This document shows, in pieces, positions 10,093 through 56,289 of a DNA stretch of 64,000 nt. Source of the DNA: Rhodamnia argentea (taxonomy: Eukaryota; Streptophyta; Magnoliopsida; Myrtales; Myrtaceae); the NCBI RefSeq assembly GCF_020921035.1, contig NC_063158.1, positions 21,190,178-21,254,177 on the forward strand, in the 5' to 3' direction. The translations under genes were made by a program, and so were the position numbers. Under the pieces are notes generated by a model. It worked only from the letters and a program-made list of their open reading frames with translations, was not told the DNA's origin and did not search any database. Positions within the stretch are counted from its first letter, which is position 1, and each line of letters starts with the position of its first letter.

Positions 10093-12966
10093 TGTCACGC
10101 TCCGATCCTCGAGTATGCAATATCCCTACCTAAACGCTTCAGGTCATAAGGGATAACGTCCCGGGCGCGTTGTCGATCCAATTTTTTTTTTTTTTTATCT
10201 TCTGATTAAGTACATGCGGAAACGATTTACTCCCAGACAACACATCAAAGAAAGAATAGTAAATCGGGATACACAACAATCAACCTCCATAAAAGTCTAT
10301 TTCAATTAAGACTATTCAATAATCCCGAGAAATACATTTATACTCATAGGCCCCACTTCAGGGCTACTTCTCACAACCCACAAAGAATATAAGGTCGGGG
10401 TTCATATTATTCCCAAGCTACTCCACTCCACTTCTAGTTCTCCATAATTAAGGGCCTGAAAATGGTTAATAATAACGGGATGAGATATAAATCTCGGTTA
10501 GTCAACGTCTAAGCTCGGCTAGGACGTTGATTCGCCTGTGGCGGCCTAAGCACGCAGCAACGATCGATAATAGATCAATAGCGAGCGCTCTGCGCCACGG
10601 TCTAGCTATCACGGGAAAGGGCATAACCCAACAATATATCACAATCATATGCAAGCTTACCACGCTTTGGATCCTATGTAATGCAATACTCGATTTGACT
10701 CAACAATCACGACAACCAAGGCAAACAACTAGGACACCCGAACAACTTGCATTGACAGAAAACCACACGTGTTTCGGTTATTAATGGCCACTTAGCCTAG
10801 CATATTAGATAGTTGGTGCATAGCACACTAGACGATTGGTGCTCTTTTGGCGGGACCAGGCACCGTTTCATTCTTTCGGCAACGGCAACTGCTAGGCCGG
10901 TGTGATTCCGATCAACACGGCACAGCATAACATGCGTTCTTGTAAGGAGTGTCGGTCCATCACAAGCCGCAACCGGCATTTGATCAACCCGTGACACGGA
11001 TTGTTGTGTATCTGACAAGTAGTATAACTCCGATCGACACGGCACTAACTAGTCGGGAAAGCCATCATATTACCACACAAGCACACCATACAACCAGCCA
11101 CTTCTTATTTTGGACGTTTAGTCAAATGCTCACGCGGTCATGCTTCAAAACTTGGCCCAAGGCTATTTTCATACTCAAATACGCAATTTGATCCACACGT
11201 GGTCATATAAATGCACGGTTTATCCACCGGACTTTGCATTTTATACGGGATGATTAATCCTCGTGTGTGTGTGTATATATACACCACATCGGTGCACTCA
11301 GCGATCAATTAATAATCACCCATCAATCCATCGTTAATAATAATTAATCATTCCGGTTACGATTAATTGGCCTAACCGCAATTAATTAATTCAATTACAC
11401 TTAATTGAGTCCATCTTAAACAATTAACACGGCAATTAATATCCCACTCGACTATAGCTAAATAATTCTCGCGATCAATCAATCACCTTGAGTCCATTCA
11501 ATACGGTCTAACAACAATTGGCCACAGTTTATTTTATCCAACCAAAGCTAATTTAAATAACTGTGATCATTTAACCTAAGAAAGATTACTAACCTAACCC
11601 GACCATAGGTAGCTAACTAATTTAAGATAAAAATTAATTAATCTATCCCTAAACGCAATTAACGACCTAACTGAGAGTTAGGAGTTAACTCACTAACTAG
11701 CCGTTTGTCAACGATTCGGGCGCGGCGGAGACAACGACGACAACGGTGGGCTCTCAGCTACGGCACGGGTCGGCCCGGGCCCACAATGGTCGACGCTTTC
11801 GAGTGGAATCCACAGGCTCGGATCGCAGGGTGTGACCTCTGGTCGGGCTCACGGGCGGAAGGTCTCGGTTGTGGGTTCCTCGGGCTGGGGTTTTCGGGCG
11901 ACCGGAGCTCGGGCGACCGGCGGGTTGACAGGCGGCACAAGGAGGGCGAGCGGCAACGACCGGGCGAAGGCCTGAATGACGACCGGCGCGGTGTGGCTGT
12001 AGGGCGTCGGGCTGGTGGTGGCGTGACGCAAGGCCGAGAAGGAAGGTGGAGCTCGCGGGTCTCTCGGGCCTCGCGTGGCTGGGCAAACGGCAGAGGGAGG
12101 TGGCGCGCCGAGCTGGGTGACGCAGCGGCGGTGACTGATGGCGAGGTGTGGTGGTGGCTGGGTGGGTGGTCAGATGAGCAGGAGGGGGGATGAGAGATAG
12201 ATGGGTCGCGGGTCAGGTCCGTTTGTGGCCGACGGACGGCGAGCGGTTGGGGCGACGGCGAGGCAGCTCGGCGATCGGCGATGGAGTGGACAGCCGGTGG
12301 TTGGCGGTGCAGGTGGGTTCGGCGTCAGGCGTGCACAGAAGAAGGGGGGAGGAAGAAGACATGGGAGTCGTCGGGTAAGGGGAGGGGGAAAGGAGAGAGA
12401 GAGAGAGGGAGAAGAGAAAATGACGTGACTAGAAGGTGATGGAGTGATGGTGATGTGGTGGGAGGAAGTTTCCGCAAGCGGGGGAGGGGAGAAAGGTCGG
12501 CAAGCTGGGGGGTGAGAGAAGAGAGGAGAGAGAGAATGGTGAGAGAGAGAAAAAGGTGATGGGGGTGGATGGAAGAAAATATAAGTGGAGCTCCCAAAAT
12601 CCAAATGATCAAATCAAACTTTCAAAAATTTTGTCTTCTAATGCAAATATTCGAGAGCATTTTGATCAATTTGCAAACTGGGATTGATTGGTTATTTGGT
12701 TCAACCGATTGAGGGAAAATTTGAGATTCTCACATTTAGGATTTGTCAGGGATTCGTGAGGGCTAGATTGAAGCGCGAAGGGTCTTAGTACTACGACTCG
12801 ACGATTTCACTATTTTAACTTGACTTTCTTTAGTGACGTCTCATAACAAATCAATCATCGTCCCTAAAATCCTCAAAAATCCAAATTTAATTACCAGACT
12901 GGAATTCATGACTAAAATTCATCGAATCTATTTTTCTTACGGACATCGAAATTCTAGGACATCACA
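10093..12966. mobile_element. Solo-LTR-like element, 2,874 bp, TG...CA, 5-bp duplication
   Basis: The block begins TGTCACGCTCCGATCC and ends GGACATCACA, and has an exact 5-bp duplication GTTAT on both sides (10088-10092 and 12967-12971). These are the marks of an LTR retrotransposon insertion. There is no second LTR inside and no gag or pol. The simplest reading is a solo LTR left by LTR-LTR recombination, most likely of a Gypsy element with very long LTRs. A TATA-like run (tgtgtgtatatatac, near 11268) and a GC-rich section (11700-12560) fit an LTR with promoter and leader. Long open frames in the GC-rich section (for example 11705-12193) are compositional. Confidence 0.7.
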
Positions 12967-14468
12967 GTTATGACTCTCAAGTATGCATTTTTTTCAGAAG
13001 TTATGGCATTTGAGTGGTTAAAAACAAAAAAATTGACACTCAAGTGAGCATTTTACAAAAGTTATGATACTCGTGATATCCTCATCTGGCTACATATGAT
13101 AATTAGAACTTTGTCGAGAGTTATCATATCAAATCACATGGCAGCTTATACGGTATGTGCCATGTCATCAATTGAGTGTACTGTAAACAAGATAAATGCA
13201 CTGGAAAAAGGAAACGAAAAAATGAAAAATGAAAAGAGGAGAAAAAATTGAGACATTAATCAATGAATATAGTACATAAACTTTGCCAACAAAGGAGACA
13301 TTAATCGGTGAATATAGTACATATAGTATGAAAATTTTTAAAACTCAATTGGTAAAATTAAAAAGTTTAAGATTAAATTTGCCAAAGTGTAATAGGTAAG
13401 GACTTTTGGACACTTGTCCCATATTGGAGGACCTTTTTTTGCGATGTTCTAGAAGTTCTAAAATTTGTTACTGAAGTGCGGTTGAGTCGTAAAAATTTTA
13501 AAAAAAAGTTCAATTAATTCATAAAAATTATCAAATTGATAAAATCAAGTCATTCTATTAACTCCATCCAATTTGACTAACAAAAAATATTGGTGTTTTT
13601 TTTTTCTCTCTTCATGGCATTGGCGTGGCTAAAATATGAGGAACAAGGCTAAAACAATATCATTTTGAATAACTAAAATTTTTTATTCTAACTATTATTT
13701 TTATTTTATAAAAATAAGTAAATTTTTAAAAAAGGAAGGTAAATCATATTTACCGAAATGATGTCGTTTTATTCTTATCTCTTATATTTTAGCCACATCA
13801 GAACCACATAGGAGAGAAAATAATAAAAAAGCCACGTTAGCATTTTTCGCCGGTCAATGGACAAAATTAGCGGGAGGACTTAATAGCATTAATTTGATAA
13901 GTTTTAAAACTTGATTGCACTTTTTATAAGTTTTATAACTTAATTATACTTTCATGACTAATTTTTGGACTTCCACTCACTTATCTCCTGCTTTTAAAAG
14001 GAAAAAGTCTATTAGACGATCTTCGGAGAGATCTAACTCTTAGCTGGTCTAACCGGTCAAACTTGGATTTGGATGTTATCTCTAATAAATTCAAACCCCC
14101 ATATATTACGCTAACATGTGGCCTTCAAGAATTGATTTGCTAATCCGAGTAAAAAGGTGAATTTCTTTCGTAACACATTCGGTTTAATAATCGATACGTG
14201 TCTTTCAAACGAAACGGGTTCTCGTAATACGCTTAAACTTAGAGATGTAATTTAACAATCAAACCAATCAAGTAGTTTTTATTCTTTTAGCACAAGGCAA
14301 ATGACTAGGTTGGCCCCAACACACTCAAACACGTGACATGACGCACAAGATCCATGATCGACCAAGGGAATAAAACCTTTTCTTCCACTAAGAAAGCCAC
14401 TAGTGGTTGCTTGGATGATTATATATCATGGAAAATTATCCAATCTGTCATAAATTTATCATACGAAG
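12495..14468. repeat. Tandem duplication, unit 1 (about 1.97 kb)
   Basis: This stretch is repeated next to itself with an offset of about 1,973 bp (unit 2 at about 14469-16441), with perhaps 5-8% divergence by eye. Unit 1 holds the last about 470 bp of the LTR plus about 1.5 kb of the DNA next to it. The duplication therefore happened after the LTR inserted. Confidence 0.85.
13447..13977. repeat. Fold-back (inverted-repeat) element inside tandem unit 1
   Basis: The left arm ('agttctaaaatttgttactg', 'ttatcaaattgataaaatc') pairs with the complement of the right arm ('ttgataagttttaaaac', 'catgactaatttttggact'). No open frame. Related sequence occurs again at 15419-15950 (the tandem copy) and near 46918-47110, so it is a dispersed MITE-like repeat. 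Exact ends were not fixed. Confidence 0.55.
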
Positions 14469-16441
14469 AGAGAGAGGTCGACAAGTTGAGGGGTGAGAGA
14501 AGAGAGGAGAGAAAGAATAGTGAGAGATAGCAAAAGGTGATGGGTGGAAGAAAAGACAAGTGGGGCTCACAAGTGGTCAAATCTAACTTTTAAAAATTTT
14601 GTCTTGTAGTGCAAATATCCGAGAGCATTTTGGTCATTTTGTAAACTAGAACTAGTTGGTTATTTGGTTCAACCGACTGAGAACAAATTTGAGATTCTCA
14701 CATGTAGGATTCGTCAGGGCTAGGTTGAAGCACGAAAGGTCTCAGTACTACGACTCGACGACTTCACTATTCTAACTTGACTTTCTCTGACCGACGTCTC
14801 GGAACAAACCAATCATCGTTTCTAAAATCCTCAAAAATCCAAATTTAATTACCAGACTGGAATTCATGACTAAAATTTATTGAATCTATTTTTCTTATAG
14901 AAGTCGAAATTCCAGGACGTCACGATTATGACACTCAAATGTACGTTTTTTTTTAGAAGTTATGGCATTTGAGTGGTTAAAAAAAAATTGACACTCAAGT
15001 GAGCATTATACAAAAGTTATGGTACTCGTAATATCCTTATCCGACTACATATGATAATTAGAACTTTATTGAGAGTTATCGTACCAAATCACATGGTAAC
15101 TTATACTGTATGTGCTATGTCATCAATTGAGTGTATTGTAAACAAGATAAATGCATTGGAAAAAGGAAACAAAAAAAATGAAAAATGGAAGGAGGAGAAA
15201 AAATTGAGACATTAATCAATGAATATAGTACATAGACTTTGCCAACAAAGGAGACATTAATCAGTGAATATAGTACATATACTTTGCCAATTGGCAAAGT
15301 ATTAAAAGGTTTAGAAATCAATTAGTAAAATTAAAAAGTTTAAGATTAAATTTGCCAAAGTGTAATAGGTAAGGACTTTTGGACACTTGTCCCATATTGG
15401 AGGACCTTTTTTCGCAAAGTTCTAGAAGCTCTAAAATTTGTCACAGAAGTGCGGTTAAGTTGTAAAAATTTTAAAAAAAAGTTCAATTAATTCCTAAAAC
15501 TTATCAAATTGATGAAATCGAGTCCTTCTATTAACTCCATCCAATTTAACTAACAAAAAATAGTGGTGTTTTTTTTTTCTCTTACATGGCATTGGCGTGG
15601 CTAAAATATGAAGAACAAGGCTAAAAAAACACCATTTCGAATAAATACAAATTTTTATTCTAACTATTATTTATATTATATAAAAAAATAAGTAAATTTT
15701 TAAAAAAGGAAGGTAAATCATATTTATCGAAATGATGTCGTTTTATCCTTATACCTTATGTTTTAGCCACATCATTGCCACATAGAAGAGAAAATAATAA
15801 AAAAAACCACATCAGTATTTTTCGTTAGTCAATGGACAAAATTAGCGGAAGGACTTAATTGCATTAAATTGATAAGTTTTAAAATTTGATTACACTTTTT
15901 ATAAGTTTTAGGACTTAATTATATTTTCATGACTAATTTTTGGACTTCCACTCACTTATCTCATGCTTTTAAAAGGAAAGAGTCCACTAGACGATCTTGG
16001 GAGAGATCCAACTCTTGGCCGGTCTAACAGGTCAAACTTGGAATTGGATGTTATCTCCAATAAATTCAAACCCCCATATATAACGCTAACATGTGGCCTT
16101 CAAGAATTGATTTGCTAATCGGAATAAAAAGGTGAATTTCTTTCGTAAAACATGTGGTTTAATAATCGATATGTGTCTTTCAATCGAAATGAGTTCTCGT
16201 AATGCGCTTAAACTTAGAGATATAATTTAACAATCAAACCAATCAAGTAGTTTTTATTCTTTTAGCACAAGGCAAATGACTAGGTTGGCCCCAACACACT
16301 CAAACACGTGACATGAGGCACAAGATCCGTGATCGACCAAGGGAATAAAACCATTTTTTCTACCAAGAAAGCCTCTGGTGGTTGCTTGGGTGATTATATA
16401 TCATGGAAAATTGTCCAATCTGTCGTAAATTTATCATACAA
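14469..16441. repeat. Tandem duplication, unit 2
   Basis: Second copy of the 1.97-kb segment. It starts inside LTR sequence ('gagagaggtcgacaag', equivalent to about 12492), passes the LTR end near 14925 ('ggacgtcacg') and continues through the same flank, ending 'ttatcatac'. The LTR piece here has no 5' part. Confidence 0.85.
15419..15950. repeat. Fold-back element inside tandem unit 2
   Basis: Tandem copy of the inverted-repeat element at 13447-13977, with scattered substitutions. Confidence 0.55.
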
Positions 16442-20671: not shown

Positions 20672-21363
20672 AAGGTGATTGATTGATGAATGTTTTTGTT
20701 TGAGTGATAATTTGAGTGAACTCATTGTATACAAAGAAGCCAATGAGCCTCTGAATGGAATCGAAGGTGAAATCTTTACTCAATTTGACTACAGCAGAAT
20801 AGATCGTACATTACAATTTTATTTCATCACTCCAACTAAACGAGCCGAAAGTCCGTTCGACTCGGATACAAATATCGTGCTATTGTCCCATCTTCATTCA
20901 TTATATTCATTTCATCTACGTAAAAATAGAGATTATAATCATGATAAGAATATCTCTGGACATGAATTGGCGAGGATGACCTAAGTAAAGGTCTGCGATC
21001 AAAATCATTCGGTGGATCTGGCGATCACTAAAACCCGATGGACACGGATTAGGTTCTAAAGTCATGTTCAGGTTGAAGTTTTGGTTTGAATCCACGGAAA
21101 ATAACAAATGAAGTTGAGTACAAACATGAGAAAATAACTATATGCAATTCACACTGAAAACTTTCAAAGAAGCATTCTCACATAACCAATTTGCATCTAG
21201 AATTCTAAAAACCTCCAATTAGCCTCCCAAATTGCGTCAACCATTTGATCCTATCTACAGATTTGCCATTTTTTCATTCCAATTTTGCACTTCCCAAAAT
21301 TTTAGTCAGCCCACAATGGATACCTATTTGCTCAAAACCCTAGCCCGCCGTCAAGACGCTTAA
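20672..21363. other. Intergenic DNA between CAD copies 3 and 4
   Basis: The first about 120 bp is the 3' flank shared with copy 5. The rest shows no gene or repeat ends. Confidence 0.4.
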
Positions 21364-21451
21364 GTGACGTCACCCTATACGTTTAACCCTATTGCGGGTC
21401 GACATATAAACAATAGAAAAGCAATACAAATGAAGTAGGCGATGACGTCAC
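21364..21451 (+). promoter_or_regulatory. Two TGACGTCA sites upstream of CAD copy 4
   Basis: GTGACGTCAC (21364-21373) and ATGACGTCAC (21442-21451) are each followed by 'cctata', suggesting a small internal promoter duplication. The first matches the palindrome before copy 1, in the same relation to the gene. TATA candidates follow at about 21402 and 21530. Confidence 0.5.
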
Positions 21452-21861
21452 CCTATATGGTTTTTGAGCACAGTGCAGGAATCCGGTATGTGCATATTAC
21501 ATGGAAGGCAATAGATTGTCGAACGTATCTTCTATAAAAAACCAGAGAAAATGAGTTCGGGCAAAGCGATGGGAAAGAACCGCCATGGATGGGTGGTGAG
21601 AGACGACTCCGGATTCCTCTCTCCTTATGACTTTTATCGTAGGTAAGCTTGCCGATCGCATGTTAAGTCCCCGATCTCGTTGCTTGAACGCGTAGCCTCC
21701 TTGACTTGCAAGTTATTTTGCCATTTCCAATGAGTAAAGTCTGTCGCAGTATTCTTGTGACAGGGCGGTCGGAATGAGGATGTCTCGGTGAAAATCACTT
21801 ATTGTGACGTTTGCTACGCGGATGTGGCGTACACTCGTAACAAATTGAAGCACTCCAAATA

Positions 21862-24800
21862 GGGTTTTTTTCCAAACCAGGTGGAAAAAAGAATATAATT
21901 ACCAAAACAGGTGTCAATTTTTTTTATTTACCAGATCGGGTGTCGCTCGGCGATCATAATGCCGAGCGACAGGCAGCTCAGCGATCACACGCCCGAGCGG
22001 CCGAGGGGCGGCCCGCTCGGCACTTATAGTGCAAGCGGGCCGCCCCCTCCTACCCCGCCCATTGGCCACTCGATCCGCCATTTGAATTTTTTTTTTCATT
22101 TTAATTTCATATTTTTTTTTATGTTTATAATTGTCGCGACCTAAAATTTGAAACCTCTAGGCTAATGGATTATCGGGTCAATTATTCAACTAACCTAACT
22201 CGGACTCTCCTAAGTTCATACCAAATCGCAACTTAACATGCAAATATATTTGAATTGGAGTCGCCACTAATCGTTTTTAGTAGGTCGATTAGAAATCTAA
22301 GTAAATTAATGGGAGAACTAAATTACTTCTATGAACCGGAGATTCTAAGTTCGGGAACTTGATTACGCTAGATTACTCTAACGCCCTTTCGGTACCATTT
22401 TATTTCATGAAAATGAATTTGTCAAGCAACATTAATTGATTTTAACCTAAGTCACTAATAAAGGTTATCATGCGATTGCACAATCAATTAATTGAAACTG
22501 GTATATTTGTAATAAATTTACCTTAAACTATTTTCTTGATCACAAAAAATCTAAACTAACACCAGTGACAAATTTATCTTAAACTAATTTTTTTATTATA
22601 AAAATCCTAAGTTGATATAACTGTGATGAATTTAAACTCCGTTAAGGAAAGTATATTACTTTAAGATTTTTCATAGTATTAATCCTTTACTTTACCTATA
22701 CTTTTCTTATTTAATTTTCCAGCTTGCGGGGATTGATAGTTAATTTGGGAGAGAGTACGGAAGTCAAAAGGAACACTAAACATGGGGGCCTGCCTTGTAA
22801 GTTGTATGGAGCGGACCAAGCTTTCCCTCCTTTAACGTGAAGAAGTTCGAGCTTTGAATCTGTCCTGTCGACAAAATTGATTTTATGTGGAAAAAAAAGG
22901 GCGGCTCTTACAAAGAGTGAAACGACAATGACCAAAAAGCAAGAAACATTTTTTCTCCTTAAGCTTAATAATGCAAGTTTCTAATCTTTTGCTAACCAGG
23001 ATTTGAGATTCCAAGGTTAGTACGATGGCTGCCGGCTCTTTTGAAGGTCTTCATATGAATTTTATACATGAACATATAGCCAAAAAAGAAAGTTATAAAT
23101 ATTATATAACATTACTAGTAATTAAAGCTCGATACCCGTAACGATTACCTAACAAAATCCCTTCTTTATATGGAGCACATATCGTCACATTTGGAGTTCA
23201 TGTCCTCCTCCCCGCTAGAGATCATCCAAATCCAATTTTCGAATAGCGAGCAAAGAAGCTAGATCTATATTAAGGGAGAATTCTGGTCGAGCGGCCGGCG
23301 AAAACTTGCGTCGAAGACCAAATCCTTATCAAAGTACATACATCAGTGTCATGGCATGCTCTTGGCAAGTCCAAGGAATTTGAAAAATTTGGGACGATGA
23401 CGTTATCGAAGTTCTTGAAAACCATCTTTGCCCCCCAAGATATTTAAGATCAAGAAAGATAGCAGATTAGGGCAGCGGTTTTATTTTTTCTATCTTTTCA
23501 TTAGACAAACAGATATAATAAATTTTCTATTTTGATTTTAATATCCGACGCGAGGCGGTTGGCAGCTACGTTAGAATGTGTCCTAACCTTTGACGGAAAA
23601 AAATGAAAAAGAAAAAAGAATGTGTCCTAACCATGGAACAACTAAATGTGCAATTTATTGATTTTGCCTGTCAAACGTGAAATCCCAACATAACATTTGG
23701 CCACCATATAAGACCAACCCACCTTGCAATCCCTAATAATACAATTTGTCAACACTAATATTTATGACACTGACGTTGTTTTAGCCCAGATAATTTAGGA
23801 TCACACCAAATAGACACTAATCATCTCAAGTTATTGGTATTCATTTGTCAACCTCTCAAGAAGGTAAATTAGATATGCTATTCCACTCCATAAAATAAAA
23901 GAATATAAATACTATCTATTCAGATTAGTGACCTTTTGAATTTCATCTTTGGCCTCAACTTAGAATTGATTTTTCTCACCGACTAAGTTCGAGAGTGTGT
24001 AGTCGGGGAAAGCAAGTGTAATCGGTAGAAGCGGGGTACACTCCTCGTCTTCTTGTGGTTTTGTTTCTCAATCTTATATATATAGCTCTCTTCTCGACAA
24101 CAGGAGTCACTAACCACCACGAACAGCACCACCGAAATCAGCCCTAAGTCGAAAGCACTACCTTAATCCGAGTGCTCACTTTGCCCGAAGTCCTACTGTT
24201 TGAGCCATGCAAGATCCATCCAATCGGCCATTCCGATAAGGTTAGAATTTAGGAGCTTAATGATGTTGACACATGACTTTTAATCAATTTTATTTTTTTA
24301 AAAAATTATAAAAAAAATCCATAAAAACAAAAGAAAAAACAAGAAAAGTCAATTGCCAAGACTAAGGGACAACTTTTTAACCAAAAATATTTTTTCATAT
24401 TTTCGCATTTTTTAATATTTTTGAAAATAAAAAATACTTGAAAAATCGAGAAAAATAGCATTTGAGGCTGCAAGAATTACACAAAAATAGTGAATATATA
24501 TTTTTTTAATTTCCTTTTCATTTTGGCATCTTAAAGTTTGAAAATTTTAAGTTGGAAACATAATAACAGAAAGATGAGCCCAACCATCTTCTCCAAAAAG
24601 ACGCCGACACTGCCAAGGTTGGTATGACGTTGTATTTTCCAAAAGCCAAACAGGTCACATAATCCTCCCAAGTCAACAGTTCCAGGTCATTGACATACCA
24701 TGCTTAACTGGCAATTCAAAGTCGGACCTAAAAATAGAAGATGATGCTGGAAGAAAATGCGACAATGACTATGCAAGAGAAGCTTTTCTTTCCTTCTCGC

Positions 24801-25921
24801 TGAATCATGGAACAGACCATGCAATTGCATCAATTTAAAGGCACAGTATATAGAATAGTGTTTCCTTTTGTTAATACAGAGCTAGGCCGAATTACGAAGA
24901 TCGCATTTTATTGTACACAAGCGACTAGCTTGATAAATTGAAAAAAATTTCATCCCTTATAAAAATAGAGACTATCTAAAACTTGATTGTCAAAACAAGG
25001 AGTTTTCTCACCCCAAAAAAATTTGTCGGTTGTGCGATTTGGGAGGTTGTTTATCAAGTACAAACGTAAACCATGTTACTGTGATTTCGTGGTGATTGTG
25101 CCTCCCGTCTTCACACTCATCGACCACGCGTCCTCCAATGCATTTAGTTTATTTTCCGTTAAAAAGCGAAAATCCAAAAGCGAGAACAATTTGTCTTGGC
25201 GTATGCTTACTGCAATTACCTTGACTTCTAGATATTCAATTAATTGATTGTACAATCGCATGATAATCTTTGTTAGTGACTTAGGTTAAAATCAATTAAC
25301 GTTGCTTGACAAAATTCATTTTTATGAAATAAAATGGTACCAAAAGGGCGTTATGGTAATCTAGCGTAATCAAGTCCCTGGACTTAGAATTTCTAGTTCG
25401 TAGAAGTAATTTAGTTGTCCCACTAATTTGCTTAGGCTTCTAATTGACCTATCAAAAACGATTAGTGCCGACTCCAATTCAAATATCTTTGCATGTTAAG
25501 TTGCGATTTGATATGGACTTGGGAGAGTCCGAGTTATGTTAGTTGAATAATTGACATGATAATCCATTAGCATAGAGTTTTCAAATTTTAGGTCGGGACA
25601 ATTATAAACATAAAAAACATATGAAATTAAAATGAAGAAAAAAAAATTCAAATGGCGGATCAAGTGCCCGGTGGGCGGCGGGGGAGGAGGCGCCCGCTAG
25701 GCATCGAAACTGCCGAGCCGCGGCCCGCTCGGCACGTAAACTGCCGAGCCGTGGCCCGCTCGGCATCGGTACTGCCGCTCGGCATCATAACTGCTGAGCG
25801 GGCCACCCGCACTGCCGACCGGCAGTATGATCGCCGAGCTACCTGCCGCTCGACATTATAAGCGCCGAGCGACACCCGATCTGGTAAATAAAAAATTGAC
25901 ACCTAGTTTGGAAAAAAGCCC
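21862..25921. mobile_element. Long-TIR Mutator-like element, 4,060 bp, non-autonomous
   Basis: The element sits in exon 2 of CAD copy 4 between exact 9-bp duplications CTCCAAATA (21853-21861 and 25922-25930). It starts GGGTTTTTTTCCAAAC and ends with the near-perfect complement. The inverted arms are about 640-685 bp long (21862-22494 and 25237-25921) and include a GC-rich subterminal block, then a highly similar about 400-bp AT-rich block. The interior (22495-25236) has only short frames and no recognisable transposase, so it probably moves with an enzyme made elsewhere. A 9-bp duplication plus long TIRs is the Mutator-superfamily pattern. Removing it and one duplication restores the ancestral exon 2 junction (the HSKYPLVPG region). 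Confidence 0.85.
25650..25885. repeat. GC-rich palindrome array in the right arm of the Mutator-like element
   Basis: Short stems of the form GCTCGGCA...TGCCGAGC recur with loops of about 7 bases (for example 'cggcacgtaaactgccg'), in alternating orientation. A shorter version is in the left arm (21944-22050), and a two-stem version is in the small element at 2544-3410. Confidence 0.7.
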
Positions 25922-27295
25922 CTCCAAATATCCCTTGGTCCCAGGGAATGTAATGTGGTCTGCTCCTTTTAAATGTTTTCATTTGGATGTGATGCTCAGG
26001 CGAGATATGTAAATGTTCAGGCATGTGATCGTGGGGATTGTAACAGAAGTGGAGGGCGACGTTGGCAAGTTCAAGATCGGAGACCATGTGGGCGTCGGGA
26101 CTTATGTCGACTCATGCAGAGATTGCGAGTTCTGTGATGGCGGACTAGAAATACATTGCTCGAAAGGTGTTGTTTTTACGATCGGCGGCACCTATCATGA
26201 TGGCAGCACTCGCAAGGGAGGATACTCCCAGTTCATAATTGTTCACGGGAGGTGCGTGATTACTAACCTCGGTTTAAAGATCCACCCAATTATCGTCTGT
26301 CACGTCACTCAGTATACATAAGCTTACGCGAATCTTGTCGGATGGCAATTCCACGACAACTTCTGGTGCCGACTTACCAATATGCAAGTATCCTGAATCT
26401 TCTGTCTTCATATTTTTGACCCCAATGCCAAATCCATTTACATTGTGCACTTTCTGCGCGTACATAGCTAAGTGTTGAATCTGTAAGTATCGCTACAAGA
26501 TACCTGACAAGTATCCATTGGCTCATGCAGCACCCCTGTTGTGTGCTGGGATCACAGTCTACACTCCGATGATCCGCCACCAGATGAATCAGCCTGGAAA
26601 ATCATTAGGAGTGATTGGACTTGGCGGGTTCGGTCACATGGCCGTGAAGTTCGCCAAGGCTTTCGGGTTAAACGTCACTGTTTTCAGCACAAGCACCTCC
26701 AAGAAAGATGATGCCTTGAATCTGTTGAAAGCAGACAAGTTCGTGCTCTCATCAGACATGGAACAAATGAGCGTAAGAGTCTAGTGATGAGAACCCACTT
26801 GAAATCTTCAGGTTTCTCAAACGGTGGGTGTCCTAAGTAGATATGATTCTGCGGTTTTCTTTACAGGCTCTGTCGAAATCTCTAGACTTCATAATCGACC
26901 TGCATGAGGAGACCACCCTTTGGATATGTGCATGTCATTGCTGAAGACAGGAGGAGTTTTGGCTTTGGTGGGCTATCCAGGCGAGGAATTGAAACTCAGT
27001 CCAATGAGTCTTCTCATGGGTAAATATTCTCTCGACAGAGATCTTAGCATTCATTTCCTCTTTTGGTTGCGTTCTTAAATTACATGTATCTTGTTTAGGA
27101 ATGAGGAGTATTTCCGGAAGCGCGGTCGGCGGTATGGAGCGAATGCAGGAGATGCTCGAGTTTTGCGTCAAACATGAGATACATCCAGAGATTGAAGGGA
27201 TTCCTATTCAGTATGCGAATGAAGCTCTTGAGAGGCTCCAAAAGAATGACGTGAAGTACCGCTTTGTTATAGACATTGAAAACTCCTTAGAGTGA

Positions 27296-31281: not shown

Positions 31282-31717
31282 TTACTTTAAGGAGTTCTCA
31301 AGGTCGATCACGAAACGGTACTTCACATCACTCTTCTAGAGCCTCTCGAGAGCTTCATTTGCTTACTGGATTGGAACTACTTCGACCTCTGGATAAATCT
31401 CATGCTCGGCACAAAAGTCGATCATCTCTTGCGTTCGCTTTATACCGCCTACTATACTCCCTTAAATGCTCCTCATTCCTAAACGAAATATGCAACTAAA
31501 GATGTTACGAATTGAAATTTAAGCCGAGAAAAACAAGATTGGTCCGATAGTTCTTGTGGTGACAGGATGCTTATCCATAGGGGATTGAGTTTGATTTCCT
31601 CGCCTGGAAGGCCTACCAAAGCTAAAACTCCTGCTGTCTTAATTAATGACATGTATAGATCAAGTGGGTGATCTCCCGATGCAGCGTCGACGATAAAATC
31701 CAGAGATTTAGCCATGC
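31282..31717 (-). pseudogene. CAD copy 5, fragment of exons 5 and 6
   Basis: Exon 6 (31282..31478) keeps full length but has in-frame stops, among them TAA just after MRSI, TAA where the sisters read QYAN, and TAG where they read LQK. Exon 5 (about 31575..31717) lacks one base at its start, has an internal deletion of about 9-10 bp near its end, and its donor reads AT instead of GT. Exons 1-4 are absent; the sequence upstream is unrelated and leads into copy 6 on the other strand. It resembles copy 3 in both exon and 3' flank sequence, so it is probably an inverted partial duplicate of it. Confidence 0.9.
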
Positions 31718-32110: not shown

Positions 32111-33873
32111 ATGAGGTCATCACCGGACAAAGAGATGAGCAAGAACTGCCATGCATGGGCAGCGAGAGATGATTCGGGGCTTCTCTCTCCTTACGAATTT
32201 GAGCGAAGGTGACGAGTTTAATTAGTGTAATATTTACATCAGATGCGTGTCGTACCTAATCGAATCTCTCTCCATCTTCGAATGACTGAACGTGTCCTTT
32301 GACAGAGGCGTGGAAAGCGACCATGTATCTGTGAGAATCACTCATTGCGGCATCTGCTACGCTGACGTGGTGTATACCCGCAACAAGATGAAGAAAACCG
32401 TGTATCCTTTGGTTCCCGGGTAAGTATTGGCCACGTCTAGTATCTATTCGATTCGGAGATGGTGTTGTCACGACAATATGTTCATTACCAAACGTGGTTC
32501 TTCACTGCATCAAACTTTCAGAATTCCCATCTTTCTTTTCCTTGGTTCTTATCTGTGTCCGTAGGCATGAGATCGTGGGGATTGTAACAGAAGTGGGTGG
32601 CAGCGTTGGCAAGTTCAAGATCGGAGACTATGTTGGTGTCGGAACCTATCTGGACTCATGCAGAGCTTGCGAGAATTGCGAGGATGCGCAAGAGATTTAT
32701 TGCTTAAAGGGAGTCACGATGACAATCAATGGCACTTATCAGGATGGTTCGATTACACAAGGGGGATATTCTAGTTTCATAGTCGTCCACGAGAGGTAAT
32801 TCACGTTATGTTACTCGATAGAAAAGCAGGTAAATTGCCAACAAAGTCCTAAAATTATTAGAGGTTTGATGATAACGTTTTAGAGTACACGGTGCTAATG
32901 CGCTATTTTCCTAAATTGTCCATTGTTTTTGTTTGATATCCTTCTGTTAGCATTCATTTCTTATGAAACGTATTTTAGGGTATGCTAGATACAGCACTCA
33001 TTGTTGAACTTACAGGTATTGCTACAAAATACCCGAGAAGTATCCCCCAGCTCTAGCAGCACCTTTGCTATGTGCCGGAATCACAGTCTACTCTCCAATG
33101 ATTCACCACAAGACGAACGAACCTGAAAAATCCATAGGAGTCATCGGACTTGGCGGGCTCGGTCATATGGCTGTGAAGTTTGCTAAGGCCTTTGGATTGA
33201 CTGTCACTGTTTTCAGCACCAGCATCTCCAAGAAAGATGATGCCTTGAGTCTGCTAAAAGCAGACAATTTTGTGATCTCATCTGACAAGGAACAAATGGC
33301 CGTGAGATTAACTACGATCGCGTCTTTAAGTTTTTCAAGCTGGCTATCATACCAGATACATTCCATTTTAGGATTTTCTTAAATGTCCTGTTCTCGGTAC
33401 AGGCTTTGTCAAAAACTCTGGACTTCATAATCGACACGGCATCTGGCGACCACCCATTTGATCTATACCTATCACTGCTTAAGATAGGAGGAGTGTTGGC
33501 TTTGGTTGGCTAGCCTGGTGAAGAGATAAAAGTCAATCCGCTCAGCCTTCTCGTGGGTAAGCATTCTCTCAATAAGTGGCAGTTCATCTCTTCCTTATCT
33601 TCCAATTCACTCCCTCTTTTGGCACATTAGAAACGATGACTTTTTTGGCATCTTGAAATGCATATCGACGGTTTAGGTATGAGGACCGTTTCCGGAAGTG
33701 CAGTTAGCGGTACAAAGCGAACCCAACAGATGCTTGAATTCTGCGCCGAGCACGAGATATATCCCGAGGTTGAAGTCGTTCCCATTCAATGTGCGAACGA
33801 AGCTCTTGATAGACTTTGAAAGGGCGACGTGAAGTACCGCTTTGTAATAGACATCGAGAACTCATTGGAGTGA
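32111..33873 (+). pseudogene. CAD copy 6, full length with two in-frame stop codons
   Basis: Exons 32111..32208, 32306..32419, 32565..32795, 33016..33301, 33403..33556, 33677..33873 have the normal lengths, GT-AG borders and phases. The zinc motifs ([29 protein letters not shown]), GLGGLGH and VFSTS are intact. TAG at 33511-33513 in exon 5 (after ALVG, where sisters have a residue before PG) would end the protein at 279 aa, and TGA at 33817-33819 lies in exon 6. The loss of the C-terminal part of the nucleotide-binding domain should be fatal. With no frameshifts it looks like a young pseudogene, unless one stop is a sequencing error. A TATA-like run lies at about 31974-31985 and AATAAA at 33997-34002. 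Confidence 0.85.
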
Positions 33874-34379
33874 TTTGATTCAGCTTACTAAATCACTTTA
33901 TGTTTAGTGGAAGCAATAATGCAGGAAATAAGAGTGTAATGACAGTAATAAGTAGGCAGTGGTCCTTTCATTATAAGTGTTTGCCTCCTCCTTTCTAATA
34001 AAAAGTCCAAAGTTACTTACATTTCAAGTGAATTTCCATTATGATTTCTCTAAAAAAGCCAAATCTTCATTTCCCCAGCAATTAGTCCAGAAGTATTTCC
34101 ATAGCGCTGAGAAGTTGCAGTTTCGGGATAGAGGAAGAAGATCCTTTTGGTAGTTAATCTAAATTTTAGCTTGCATACATGCGACAAAAAAGATGCTAAC
34201 TTTGGATTTGTGGAAGGTTGTCGCCCTCTCTGATTGTTGTGGCTTCAAGATTTGAGGAGTCCATTGATCACAGTAAAAGACATAATTATTATGACAACGC
34301 AAAAAAGGAAATGACACGGGAGAATGTACCGATGTGAAAGTTGAGCTTATCGATCATATTGAAAAGTCTCATAGTCTAA
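33874..34379. other. 3' flank of CAD copy 6, no further gene seen
   Basis: Includes AATAAA at 33997-34002 and then unique-looking sequence up to the LTR at 34380. Confidence 0.4.
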
Positions 34380-35271
34380 TATCACGGTCCGCCTAAATCC
34401 TTGATCGAGAATGGACCGTGACACGATCAACCGGCCATGCCATGATTCATTCAACAAATCAATGCCTGGTTGGGCATGTGGATCAACCAGCATTAATCCC
34501 ACTCGACCAAGCATCAGCCAAGACGGTCGAGCGAATGAATCAGCAAACACATCAGAATAGGAATCATTGCACAATGTAGTGGACGAACGGAATAGATCCA
34601 TGCACGATGGACGAATCATACAGCTTGACTGAGTGCATGGTGCATCCCTCAATTAGGATGAATCCGGGATTGATGCGGTGCTCGTTCACCCTGAACTAAC
34701 GTACGATGCAGGACTCATTCAGCATGACGCCACGGACGATGTTATGCATCAACCGGCGGCCAATCTGCATGATGCAGCGAACTACCCGATGAACGATTAA
34801 GCGAACGAGCAGACACATGAAGAGTCATCGAGACCCCTCATCTCCTAAAGGCTTCTAGAATATCCATGGGGCAGTTCACACAATGATTCAGCCATGGGGG
34901 AGCCTAAAAGACTCACTAAGGGAAGATCCATGCAAGACATAACCCAAGAACCCATGCAATACAAGACAAGGGGAATAGGACGAGCAGAAAAGGACGAAGC
35001 TGGGTAGTCCAAGGGGCCATTCAAATCTGCCCTTTTTTTGTATAAATAAGGGTGAACCCCCCACATTGTAAACACCTTGTACACAGCATTCACCAAGCAA
35101 TAGAGCATTCTCTCTTCCGAATCTCTCTCTCGGTTCCCTCTCTTTCTCTCCACCAATCGTGAGTTGTGAGCGTGTGTGAATGATCCTCGAGCCAAGGCTT
35201 GATTCGGGCGAACACCACCTAAAAATCCCCGAGTCGCTACACGGTCGTGGTTCAAACACTGCCCCATGACA
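34380..35271 (+). repeat. 5' LTR of the TR-GAG-like element
   Basis: Ends '...gttcaaacactgccccatgaca'. A TATA-like 'gtataaataag' lies at about 35040 and a CT-rich leader follows it. Confidence 0.75.
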
Positions 35272-38211: not shown

Positions 38212-39806
38212 AAAGCGATCTACCAAAGAGGTGGAAAACTTCCTCTGGGTAGTCGAACAATACTTCGATGCCATGGGAATCATGGACAAAGGAGCCAAGG
38301 TGCAGATAGCTACCATGTACTTGTATGTGGTAACGTTGCTGTGGTGGGATGGATGATGCAACGACAAGCGGCGGTGCGAGACCTATCACTCACTGGCCCG
38401 ATAGTTTGCTGTTGCGTTCCGTGAGCAATTCTTCCCTGAATGCACCACGAATGAAGCCTGAAGCAAGCTGTGCCGACTCTCACAAAAGGGAGATGTCCAC
38501 AAGTACGTTTGGGAGTTCTCCGAGCTCATGCTCGTGATCCCGGACATGACCAACGCCGAGGCCTTGTTCACATTCGTGGACGGGCTCAAATCGTGGGCAA
38601 AGATGGAGTTGGAACGTCGTGAAATGCAAGAGCTATCCAAAGCTCTCACGATGGCTGAGTCCCTCATTGATCTTCATCAGTACGATGAGACCAAATCTAA
38701 GGGCAATGGTGGGGGAACTGATCCTCACCACGACAACGATCATGATGGCAACCGTGGTCTATGACCTGAGCGATGAACATGAGTAGAGGGGACGTCCACA
38801 CCGTCCTACCCAAAGGGCAATTGTCCCCAAGGCACGAAGCCGCCACCATCCTCGTGCTTCATTTGCTAAGGAGATCATTGGGTCAATGAGTGCCTACACA
38901 AAAACAAAATCAACACCTTGATCACCTCAAAAAAGGAAAAAGATGAGCTAACGGAGCAACAAGAGCCAAAACAACGAGAAATCCAACTCCAGACCATCAA
39001 GATAATTGACCCGGCGAACGCAGGGAAAACTCCAGCTTCGCCCAAGAAGCCATCCACGAGCACAGCGAGTCTAGCATTCGTGGAAATCAAGGTGCACGTC
39101 GGATCATGCAAAACGACACTAAACGTCTTGGTTGGCACCGATGCGTCAGATATCTTCATGCTGAGTGAAGCGGGAAAGTGGCTGGGGCTGCGGGTAGAGC
39201 CGAATGGGTAACTATTTAAACTAGCCAACTCGGTAGATAAGTTGATCGTTGGCGTAGCTTGGAAGGTGGATCTTGAAATCGGTGGATGGCGTGGCGAACT
39301 CCCATCAACGTCATTCCGCTGGACGATTATGACTCCATATTGGGGTTGAATTTTTTTTATGAAGCCAAGGTGATGGTCGACGTACAAGGTAAGGTAATTA
39401 TCATCGCTGACCCAAAGTGCCCAACGATGATGCCATTGATCTTTGGGTTGGCCAATACCAATAGCATCGCCACGATTCAAATCGCGGACAACAAGCCGAC
39501 AATGGACGAGCTTGAGGCCAAGCGAGCACAGCATCCTTCGGACAACCTGAGGATAGAATAGCAGCGTACGTCATCCTCATATGAGGTGTCGATCCATATC
39601 TTATTTCCCGAAATGGCCGACTGGTCAAGCAACACGGACGGGGCTGAGTAGAGACAACATTCTTTGTGGATTCCCCTAGGTTCGCTCGCCGGCAGAGAAG
39701 TGGAATAGGCGGTACTGAAGGAAGAATAATCGCCAACGCTCACCAAGTCAAGCGAATGATCTCGGGACAGGAGCGCCGAGGACGTCGCTCGATTTGGTGG
39801 GGAGAA

Positions 39807-40504
39807 TATCACTTTCCAACTAAATCCTCAATTGAGAATGGACCATGACACGATCAACCGGCCATACCATGATTCATTCATCTAACCAATGCATGGCAAG
39901 GCGTGTGGATCAACCAACATCGATCCCACTCGACCAAGCATCAGCTAAAACGGTCGAACAAGTGAATCAGCGGATACATCAGAACATGAATTGCTACACG
40001 ATGTAGTGAACAAACTAAATGGATCCATGCACGATGCACGGATCATACAGCCTGAACTAGCATGATGCATCGCTCGATTAGGATGAATCGAGGACTGATG
40101 TAGTGCTCATTCACCCTGAACCAACATACGATGCAGGACTCATTCAGCATGATGCCACGGACGATGTTGTGCATCAACCAGCGACCGATCTGCATGACGC
40201 ATCGAACGACCTGATGAAGACCGAGCAAGCGAGCAGGCAGATGAGGAGTCACCAAGATCCCTTGCCTCCCAAGGGCTCCTAGAACATCGATGGGATAGTT
40301 CACACAATGATTCAGCTATGGGGGATGCTAAAAGACTCACAAAGGGACAAACCATGCAAGACAAAGAACTCATGCAATGCAAGACAAGGGGAATATGACG
40401 AGCAGAAAATTACGAAATTGGGTATTCCAATGGGCTATTTGAAATTGCCCTCTTTTGTATAAACAGGGGTGAAACCCCCACATTGAAAACATTCATCAAG
40501 CGAT

Positions 40505-40557
<53 letters not shown>

Positions 40558-40666
40558 GTTGTAAGCACGTGTGAACGATCCTTGGGTCAAGGCTTGATTC
40601 GGGCAAGCATTACCCAAACATCTCCCGGTCGCCGCACGATCGTGGTTCAAACACTGTCTTGTGACA
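39807..40666 (+). repeat. 3' LTR of the TR-GAG-like element
   Basis: Homologous to 34380-35271. It carries an uninterrupted (CT)23 run at 40508-40553 where the 5' LTR has only short CT stretches. Confidence 0.75.
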
Positions 40667-51869: not shown

Positions 51870-54800
51870 CTGCTCCGATTGAGGATTTCATTGATCCGTC
51901 GGAAGAGAAGCCATGAAGGTGAGATCTCCTACTACATTGGCACAATCAGATTCAATAATAAGAGATAGCGAGGTAGATTGCTATGCGGTTTGAGATTGTT
52001 GACGATTCACCTAGAATTGTGCCCCTTCCTTACGTGCCAACGCTTCAACTTACTCTGAATCAATGGCGGGGACATCCTTGATAATGCCATTAATGCAATT
52101 TCCTCGCTCGTCATGTAGAATGACCGTGACCACTCCCGACGTCTCGCCCGAGAAGAAAGACACGTCAACATTCAATTTCTGTGTCCCGGTCGAAGGAGGC
52201 CGCCATTGCTCATGTAGGTTTTCTGCTTGTAGTTGTCTATTTGGTTGCCATCTGCAATAGCTGGAATTATTAGCATGTGCGGTGTAAATCGTATGTTCCG
52301 GATCCAGTGATTGTTGGCGGAAGATCATTGCATTTCTAGCTTTCCAAATTTGCCACGGAAGATGGGCAATAAAGGTCACCAATGGTTGGTTCGGTGATGG
52401 TCTCTACAGCAGGTATATTAACTATTCCTCAATTCGCGTTATTCTCTACTGGTTAATCGACGTATTTATTAGTGGATGTGACTAGATCTGTGTTGTCCGG
52501 GGGCACAACAATAGCAAGTGTTCAACGGTTTCTAGGGCTTGGCGACAAAGACCGCAATCGGGGTCGGGTATGATGTTTCGTCGAAATAGATTAGCTGCTG
52601 TCGATATTGCATTGTGACACACGCGCCATAGGAAATGTCGATCTTAGGAGGTACTTGGTAGTTTCCATATTTGTCTCCATAGAGAAGGAGGGGGCTGATG
52701 AGAGGTAGATACTATAGACTTAGTAGGGGTTGACATTTGGAGTGCTCGACAAGCTATTTTAACCGAATATCGACACGAAGTAGATTGAACCCACAGCAGT
52801 CAATCTTGGGAATTCTGGTCGGTGAGAAGGATTGTCATTATCTCTTCAACCTTTTGTGATGAGAAGAAATTGCAAAGGAGATGTTCATCCCATTGAAAGG
52901 ACAGAGTAATAAAACCAGCAAGTAGTTTAGGTTCGAGGGGTGCTGGTTCACCACCTATAGGTCTAGTTGGTAACCAATTATCATAGGGAATGTGGATTCT
53001 ATTTCTATTACCAACTTGCCAATGCACAAAAGGGGCAATAGAGTTGCGGCCGGTCAACAGGCTTTGCCATCCCTAGGATGGCCTTGCCCCCTTTATGGCT
53101 TCTCAAAATGAACTATGTGGGAAGTAGAGGCCCATCAATAAGGTAGCCTAAAGGCTGGCACGGTCAGAGTGGAGCCTCCATGCGGTTTGGCCAAGCATTG
53201 CATGGTTAAAGCAAATAAGATCACGAAAACCAAGTCCGCCATCAAGCTTGCTACTTTTAAGAAGCTCCCAATTGCGCCAATGCAAACCGTAACTCGCATC
53301 CTTATTAGACCACCAAAAGGCTGCAATCCTCCTTTCAATAGCATGGCAAACCGAGAGAGGCACCTTAAAAACTGTCATGGCATACTGGGGTATAGCTTGG
53401 ACACTGCCTTGATTAAGACTTCTTTCCCTACAAGCGAAAATAGTTTTTCTTTCTAGCCTGCTAATTTATTATGAACTCATGTTAAAATCTAGGAAAACAA
53501 TTCCTTTTTGGTCTAACCCCAGTCGAAAGGAAGGCCTAAGTACTTTCCTATATGAGCTAACTCCGGAACCCGCATCTCAATAGCCGGAGAACTCCTCAAC
53601 CGTTTTGGGCATCCACGACTAAAATACATCCCAAATTTATTTAGATTTATGGCCTGTCCCGAGGCATATCAATACTAGTTTAGAATATCATTTAAACTGT
53701 GGCATTCAGATATCTTGGCATCAAGAAGAAAATAGAATCATCCGCAAACAGAAGATGTGAAAGAGTTGGGCAATAACGATTCGGTTTAATGCCTTTAAGA
53801 CACCCCTTTTGGATTGTTGCGGTTAACATAGATGACAAAACATTCGATACTAGAATAAATAAATAGGGCGATTGCGGATCACCTTGCCTCAATCCCCTCG
53901 AGGGGTAGAACTCTAGTAATGGGGCCCCATTTAGGAGGACGCTAAAAGAAACAGATTGGACACAAGCCCCGATCCATAATACCCATTGGGCCGCAAATCC
54001 CATTTTAAGTAAACAGGCTTCCAAGAAATCCCATTCGATTCGATCATAGGCCTTCTTCATGTCAAGTTTCAAAAGAGCCCGAAATCGTTGCTTTCTTTGA
54101 CGGACTCGAAGTTGGTGAAGAATTTCTTGGACGATTAGTATGTTATCCTAAATTTGTATTCCTAAAACAAGAGCACTCCATTCCAGGTGTATAATAGTTG
54201 GTAGTAGAGGTCTAAGCCGATTGGCCAGGACTTTTGAGCAAATCTTGTATGATAAATGGCATAAACCGATTGGACGATACTGATCTAAACACTCTAGATG
54301 AGGCACCTTGGGTGTAAGAGTAATATGTGTATGATTGATAGACCGAGGAAGCATACCAATGTGGAGAAACCCATTAACCATTTTGAGAATATCTTGCAGA
54401 CAAGTAGCCTAGTGATATTGGTAAAACAAACCGCTAAGCCCATCAGATCCCGGCGCTTTAGATTATCCTAGTTGAAACACCGCTAGCCGAACATCATCTA
54501 TAGTTGCAGCTTGAGTTAAAAAATTATTCATATCTTCGGTAACGATAGCGGGATAGTGGGCGAGGATTGGTTCAAACCGTCGGTTACCTTGGGTATAATA
54601 TAGGTCGCTAAAGTAAGATAGAATGTAATGTTGCAACGGTGAATATCCTCAAATCCAATCTCCCTATAGTGTCTTGAGCATTGAAATGCGGTTGCGAAGT
54701 CGCCTTTGGATTGTATTAGTATGGAAAAACGTGTATTTCTGTCCTCATATGATAGCTGTTGTATTCTTGACCGAAGCCCCCAATATTGTTCCTCCTATTT

Positions 54801-55796
54801 CCACAAAGCATCAATTTCATTCCCGATATGAGAAATATGTATCGTATCGGTAAGTGATCCCGTTGACTGATTTGTTGGAGTCTCCAGCTTCTATTTAAGC
54901 AAGGAAATAGCAGTTGCAGCATTAGGAAATGGCATTCGACGTCACTGGGCTAAATATCGCAATACCCAACGCAACTTCACAGGGCAAGAGTTATCAACAT
55001 GAGCTGGAGACAACCATACTTCTCTAACTACTTGAAGGCAATCAGCAGAATCATTCTAGTATGCTTCATATTTGAATCGACGTCTTTGGGGTGGTGATGA
55101 ATGAGTCAAAGAGAGCATAAGAGGGCTATGATCGGAACCCACGGGTGGCAAAGCAAACACTTCAACCCGTAAACACATAAGACGCCAATCCAAAGAACGA
55201 AAAGCTCGATCCAGCCTTTCCTTTACACAATTTGGGCCCACCCTATTATTAGACCACGTGTAGGCACACCCTTTAGAGTCAATTTCCATAAGTGAGCATC
55301 CCGTAACGAAGTCTCTAAAGGCAATCACTCGATAATTGTCAATCTCCCAACCTCCTATTTTTTCCCATACACAAAGCATTTCATTGAAATCACCTAGGCA
55401 CAACCATGGATGGTGAACATGCTGATGGATACCCCGTAGAGCATGCCGTAGCTATTGTCGCTCCCGAAAAGAGTTGGGGGCGTGTACAAATGTTATCTCC
55501 ATGGTGAAGTGGCTTTCACAATCAGTAAAAAGCAAGTGAATAATCGAGGTAGTTATAATATAAACAGAAGCTATCTCATTCCAAAATAAAGCTAAACCTC
55601 CCGCCGTGCCAACCGACGGGACGATGAAGTCATGCAAAAAATGGAGCCTCCGTTGGTGACGATGGACAACCTCATCTGGTTGCTTCGTCTCCTTAAGAAA
55701 CACCAGGTTGGGCCTATCCCGAGCTACCAGAGCCCAAACCTCTCGAATCGTTAGAGGGTTGCCCAACCCCCGGCAATTCCAACACAAAAGCGTCAT
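51870..55796 (-). pseudogene. LINE ORF2 remnant (endonuclease, RT, RNase H)
   Basis: Begins MTLLCWNCRGLGNP and runs through an AP-endonuclease-like domain with GDFNE and GSDHSP. The reverse transcriptase shows YRPIGLC, LDMKKAYDRIEWDFL, GLRQGDPQSPYLF and the catalytic FADD (about 53720-54380). A zinc-finger domain with FRRN..PDPDCGLC lies near 52560, and RNase H begins KLNVDVSF (about 52200), with IESDCANVV near 51950. Many stops and shifts. Confidence 0.8.
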
Positions 55797-56289
55797 GGAG
55801 TACGTGGTAGCTTATTAGGGCTGGCAAACGGAGCCCGTTGAGGTAATTCCTCATGCAAAACTAGGGTGTCGGTGAGCCGAGATTCATCAACCAAACTAGG
55901 AAAGGCTGAAATGTCATAAGGAGAATATCACTTAGTCTTCTTTGAGGATGAGCCGACATGTTGTTTCCCTTTTTGCTTTCGGGATAACCTTGCGACAGCT
56001 GGAGTAGGCTGATGTAAAGTCAGAGCCTTTTGGGTGTATTGATGTTGATAGGAGGGTAGTGTATTGAGAGTGAATGGGGCAGGTTGCTATTTATTTGAAA
56101 TTTGTTGTAGGGTTAACCGCACAGGAGAGGCAGCTCCCGGAGGGTTAGAAGGCTCTGAATAAGTTTTTGTAGAAGGTGGAATAAAGTGGTCAAATACAGC
56201 TATCGCATCAAGCAAGGGAGTGACTATATGTATAGAGGGTGGCGGGGTTGATGAGTTAACAGCTTGGTGTGAAGTGCCCCCAAGGGCTA

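Follow-up and report, generated by a model that had tools for sequence, protein, structure and literature searches.

In this work we have studied a 4,060-bp element (positions 21862-25921, no strand assigned) in a 64-kb window of the Rhodamnia argentea genome, the window being the whole stretch of DNA that was analysed. With a probability of about 0.88, we consider it to be a Mutator-like transposon of the non-autonomous kind, derived by deletion from a lineage of 11-14-kb MULEs, which was mobilised in trans and whose arms have been extended by LTR sequence. The element has target-site duplications, inverted ends, and ends common to transposase-bearing elements. Each of its arms is made of two pieces, the TIR common to the long relatives on the outside and, over the inner 365 bp, the terminus of an abundant LTR. 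The derivation of the inner half of each arm from an LTR and not from Mutator sequence is new here and was missed by an earlier note on this DNA, as was a shortened solo LTR in the right part of the element.

Boundaries of the element and the interrupted gene

Two exact copies of the 9-bp sequence CTCCAAATA, at 21853-21861 and 25922-25930 on the forward strand, flank the element, and this sequence occurs at only those two sites in the whole window, on either strand. The termini of the element are GGGTTTTTTTCCAAACCAGGTG and, reverse-complemented, GGGCTTTTTTCCAAACTAGGTG. The left arm (21862-22496, 635 bp, forward strand) and the right arm (25235-25921, 687 bp, reverse strand) are separated by 2,738 bp and are identical at 440 of 501 positions in their main block and at 532 of 602 aligned sites overall (88%). 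Long TIRs are called diagnostic of MULEs, and the element has both these and an exact duplication of a length, 9 bp, within the 8-11 bp of Mutator-like elements. There are 45 stop-to-stop frames of at least 40 amino acids within it, the longest of 89. Nine of the 45 were searched against Pfam and gave no match up to E = 1, and the transposase and plant mobile domain (PMD) proteins of the long relatives described below gave nothing convincing when compared with the element (best E 0.22); a MURA-type transposase of its own, as an autonomous element has, was not found in these searches. The earlier note had described the exact 9-bp duplications, arms of about 0.64-0.69 kb and a 2.7-kb interior without transposase, and our results agree with it on each of these, both copies of the duplication being confirmed to the base.

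The outer, Mutator portion of the left arm (21862-22131, forward strand) has a terminal GGG, GC-rich hairpins and repeated CCARAnCRGGTG motifs, of which there are three in this arm. The right arm contains an array of imperfect palindromes with a period of 31 bp (25690-25871, reverse strand; lag-31 identity 0.43), a value reached in none of 500 shuffles; in the left arm a 31-bp period was no better than chance (reached in 40 of 500 shuffles). Strong hairpins are predicted for both arms when single-stranded (z -5.9 and -6.6). Because the motif bound by maize MURA is about 32 bp long (PMC3310237), the array may be a candidate set of transposase binding sites, although this is a guess. A search of positions 21300-26300 against Rfam gave three matches, every one far under the gathering score of its family, and an exact pattern taken from the arm had no match in IMG/VR.

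The interrupted gene is CAD copy 4, with exon 1 at 21551-21642 and exon 2 split into a 5' part (21764-21861) and a 3' part (25931-25945), all on the forward strand. Without the element and one duplication the sequence reads AAG CAC TCC AAA TAT CCC TTG GTC CCA GG and is collinear with copies 1 and 3. The earlier claim that the insertion site within the exon is exact to the base is supported. It had also been claimed that removal of the element restores the codons of exon 2, which is true locally; it does not bring the whole exon back into frame, because there is a 1-bp deletion at codon 35, upstream of the element, and the donor that follows the 3' part is GA instead of GT. With a further 1-bp deletion at codon 253 and a stop at codon 255, copy 4 is a pseudogene with several lesions besides the insertion. 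Nor is it the only damaged member of the group, since in-frame stops are also found in the CAD sequences at 31282-31715 (reverse strand), which matches the last exons, and at 33397-33873 (forward strand), which is the end of copy 5. The solved structures nearest to the copy 3 protein are 10-hydroxygeraniol oxidoreductases, nerol dehydrogenase and sinapyl/cinnamyl alcohol dehydrogenases.

Several other repeats were seen in the window. Two adjacent direct repeats of 2 kb (12489-14464 and 14470-16439) are 88.9% identical, and the direct repeats 34378-35261 and 39805-40656 (80.6% identical) surround frames that appear gag-like by eye; the latter pair is perhaps an old LTR retrotransposon. Frames of a LINE, resembling reverse transcriptase and endonuclease, were recognised by eye from the translations of 53148-55811 (reverse strand).

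Long relatives that encode a transposase

The first 200 bp of the element had at least 41 matches in its own 346.7-Mb genome, a lower bound, since 40 of 118 first-look candidates were scored. From these matches we picked eight pairs of ends lying on opposite strands at a distance of 11-14 kb. Each pair encloses an element, of 11,104-13,637 bp in length; these elements start with GGGC(T/A)TTTTTCCAAA and have TIRs of 219-364 bp; the left end of one of them (C2, 16.5 Mb) was placed by hand. The 9-mers flanking these elements are identical in four cases, agree at 8 of 9 positions in three and at 7 of 9 in one. Further pairs were found on C9 (12.3 kb, flanking 9-mers 8/9), C3 (28.2 kb, 8/9) and C1 (21 kb). 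The genome thus contains other elements that share these ends and are flanked by 9-bp repeats (four of the eight exact), and their absence was one of the outcomes that the earlier note had named as refuting its reading.

Matches to the transposase and to the PMD protein were obtained with tblastn in all eight long relatives, including L031, from which the queries were taken. Two members were searched against Pfam. L031 has the MULE (PF10551), SWIM (PF04434) and PMD (PF10536) domains, and the scanned frames of L021 matched the first two of these. In the loci L021-L036 (G000; C1, C2, C3, C4, C6 and C9), which are long MULEs, the PMD gene is separate from the transposase and lies on the opposite strand. 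The ends of the window element are therefore common to elements with matches to a MULE transposase, as expected for a Mutator element, and it agrees with the description of a non-autonomous Mutator-like element given in the earlier note, no transposase having been found in it. Among nine loci (the eight long relatives and L039; eight loci for the second transposase part), the median pairwise dN/dS was 0.50 for PMD (36 pairs) and 0.56 (36 pairs) and 0.38 (28 pairs) for two parts of the transposase. Values above 1 occurred in single pairs, and several copies have in-frame stops which are either real or come from the simple alignment.

Composite arms and the interior

The LTR stub in the left arm occupies 22132-22496 (reverse strand) and is the end (TGTCGCGACC...) of an abundant LTR. 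Searches with the inner left arm (22080-22496) and the inner right arm gave 2,432 and 1,889 first-look candidates respectively, and 40 were scored in each. In both searches 14 of the 40 scored hits, the two arms of the window element included, span the junction between TIR and LTR. The other 26 begin at the LTR terminus or close to it, at query positions 40-55 for the left arm or 48-85 for the right, mostly where TGTCGCGACC begins (window position 22132; query positions 53 and 61). At a locus on C3 there is a 14,952-bp LTR retrotransposon with TG..CA ends, a 5-bp duplication (GGTTG) and LTRs of 1,385 and 1,344 bp. It has the same terminal bases as the captured LTR, to which it is 75-76% similar over 304 bp, and is related to that LTR without being its donor.

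The C3 relative of the window element is composite at its right end only; the left end is a plain TIR, of which about 140 bp could be aligned and which extends to about 225 bp by eye. Flanking duplications were compared for these two composite-arm loci and agree at 9 of 9 positions for the window element and 8 of 9 for the C3 element. No transposase was found in the composite-arm loci on C11, C8, C1 and C3, and those on C11 and C3 have PMD only. An element at 8.6 Mb on C9 also has one composite end, and the scored lists of composite arms do not include its other end. A 162-bp stretch of the left interior of the window element recurs at about 580 bp from that other end, and the same spacing, 577 bp, is found at an end at 19.06 Mb on C8. 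These locus coordinates suggest that the left interior originally went with a plain left end, in which case the left composite arm of the window element would be a later replacement.

From left to right, the interior begins with a MITE-like, short and abundant repeat of about 150 bp (22495-22645), often paired elsewhere. The left interior (22497-23747) is shared for most of its length, at 89-93%, with four other loci (C10, C9, C8 and C7). It is followed by a joint at 23748-23751 which none of the other scored hits has and which would mark the breakpoint of a deletion or recombination: the four loci match its left side up to 23747, and five loci of the right block start at 23752, the others further in. 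The right block itself (23752-24263) is of low copy number: of 40 candidates scored, it was present at eight loci outside the window, five of them adjoining a composite arm. At 24264 an abundant repeat begins with TGTTGACAC, the matches starting at query position 525. All these features are on the forward strand. An assignment of the whole right interior to a retrotransposon was rejected for 23752-24263, which is low copy, and accepted, as LTR, from 24264. Since both LTR termini (TGTTGACAC...GGTCGGGACA) are present, the right part contains a solo LTR of 1,337 bp (24264-25600, forward strand). This LTR is a shortened one, its counterparts in the relatives on C11 and C8 being about 2.3 kb long (2,317 and 2,299 bp, respectively). 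The joint of the deletion of about 0.98 kb relative to these two lies at 25136-25141 (forward strand), with a short microhomology TGC seen by eye. No 5-bp duplication surrounds the solo LTR (AATGA versus ATTAT), so it is not proven that a simple insertion and later recombination between two LTRs gave rise to it. The right block and the solo LTR are common to loci on C11, C8, C3, C2 and C9. At C8:7127700-7147400 (L042, L043) there are two copies of the right block that face in opposite directions, with 92.8% identity over 1 kb, which suggests an even longer inverted end, of over 3 kb.

Origin of the element and alternatives

In Mutator transposition a staggered cut is made at the target and its repair yields a 9-bp duplication. 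The long members of the lineage encode the MULE transposase together with a PMD protein on the other strand. One of them most likely supplied its transposase in trans; this enzyme would have recognised the shared ends and carried the element into exon 2 of CAD copy 4, the 9-bp duplication arising when the staggered cut was repaired. The LTR of a retrotransposon would have come to adjoin the family TIR at one end, part of this composite end would have been copied onto the opposite end to give the long arms, and internal deletions would have reduced the element to 4 kb. The arms probably grew in this way, one end capturing the LTR and the opposite end receiving a copy of it, because the same junction is found in 14 arms of the 40 hits scored and the C3 relative is composite at one end only. 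The closest matches to the arms and interior of the element are about 94% at best, and as no closer copy was found its own mobility is only inferred. As a general statement, we incline slightly towards the view that Mutator arms can lengthen by absorbing another transposon, an LTR being fused to one TIR and the composite then copied across, so that the inverted repeat is approximately doubled to tripled.

Could the two halves have come from different elements? It is possible, but we regard it as the less probable course, that the left half is from an element of the C10/C7 type and the right half from one of the C11/C8 type, joined at 23748-23751 by recombination or by transposition that employed ends from two elements. 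The loci with a nearly full left interior (four besides the window) and those with the right block do not overlap, and only in the window element are both halves together at full length. Moreover, in the LTR part each arm is nearer to an arm of another element (left arm to C8 arm 94.0%, right arm to C10 arm 93.2%) than to its partner (90.7%). However, the C9 element at 8.6 Mb has the 162-bp piece of the left interior near one end and the right block with a composite arm at the other, therefore both halves can stem from one ancestral element and an internal deletion suffices. In addition, among seven arms compared, the right arm is nearest to the left arm in its outer part (83.1%) and over its whole length (87.7%); the tree of these seven arms is poorly supported, and sisterhood of left and right is not rejected (AU p = 0.23).

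The low-copy, non-LTR block at 23752-24263 raises the question of a Pack-MULE, in which the interior holds a captured fragment of a host gene. Three of the eight other loci of this block (two on C5, one on C8) have no demonstrated adjoining composite arm; yet the other five adjoin composite arms of the same lineage, and Pfam recognised no captured gene piece in the nine of 45 frames scanned. We consider such a capture unlikely. It is still far less probable that the element is of the Foldback type, with long arms of tandem repeats and not moved by a Mutator transposase. The 31-bp palindromic array of the right arm and the predicted hairpins of both arms recall such elements, but the array spans only about 180 bp, tandem repeats do not run throughout the arms, whose inner half is the LTR stub, and the ends are those of elements with MULE transposase matches.

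Age of the insertion

The earlier note proposed that the element may be young because its arms are close in sequence. This argument is not supported, since over the whole arm the left arm is nearer to the C8 and C11 arms (both 90.2%) than to its own partner (87.7%). The K2P divergence between the arms is 0.089 for the inner part, 0.24 for the outer part and 0.128 overall, and that between the noncoding parts of CAD copies 1 and 4 is 0.187. As the arms of different elements are about as close, we rejected dating of the insertion by arm divergence, and the arms indicate neither a young nor an old age. The element is absent from CAD copy 1, so the insertion postdates the split of copies 1 and 4, unless copy 1 has lost it. 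Dating by loss of constraint was rejected also: scored only where copies 2 and 3 agree, the copy 4 branch has 21 nonsynonymous and 10 synonymous changes and the copy 1 branch 12 and 10, counts that are too small to show whether the insertion or the frameshifts came first.

Relation to known elements and significance

Deletion-derivative MULEs such as maize Mu1 keep the ends of their family and have lost the coding region, as is the case for the window element. In contrast to Mu1-type derivatives, its arms (635 and 687 bp) are partly LTR, and they exceed the TIRs of the eight long relatives in length by a factor of about two to three. The long relatives resemble Abermu of barley (PMC9168764), which is described as having GGG...CCC termini, a 9-bp TSD, large members and a MURA-like ORF, joined in some types by a second ORF that runs the other way; such ends and a 9-bp TSD are present here, a likeness by description and not by nucleotide comparison. 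The barley element differs in its TIRs of 138-145 bp and in the opposite ORF, which is of unclear function there and matches Pfam PMD here; the term "mobile domain" is absent from the main text of that paper. PMD was first described with a rice MULE (PMC5418596), and the combination of MULE transposase and PMD within one element is common to the MULEs of that study and ours. However, fusions of the two were reported there from several grasses and Amborella, whereas in our long relatives they are separate frames on opposite strands. Rearrangement of TIRs is known from MULEs with multiple long TIRs (PMC3310237), where acquired sequence can enter extended TIRs. There the TIRs are duplicated, mostly in tandem, while here a TIR is lengthened by an LTR fragment. 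Our literature search, by titles and openings of abstracts, found no report of an LTR fragment as a MULE arm, which is weak evidence of novelty.

It has been suggested that transposons may produce PMD proteins against silencing (PMC8616336), and the separate PMD gene of our long relatives has a median dN/dS below 1. In one set of MULEs the TSDs were 8-11 bp and the TIRs 14-500 bp long, and why TIR length varies so much is described as not clear (PMC6446971). The steps by which arms grow could be put in order here, because all composites have the same junction and one genome shows plain TIRs (0.2-0.36 kb), a one-sided composite (C3) and the two-sided composite arms of the window element side by side. 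Our results also caution against dating MULE insertions by the divergence of their arms. If the proposed course is true, capture of an LTR and copying of the extended end would be a concrete route to the great variation in MULE TIR length.
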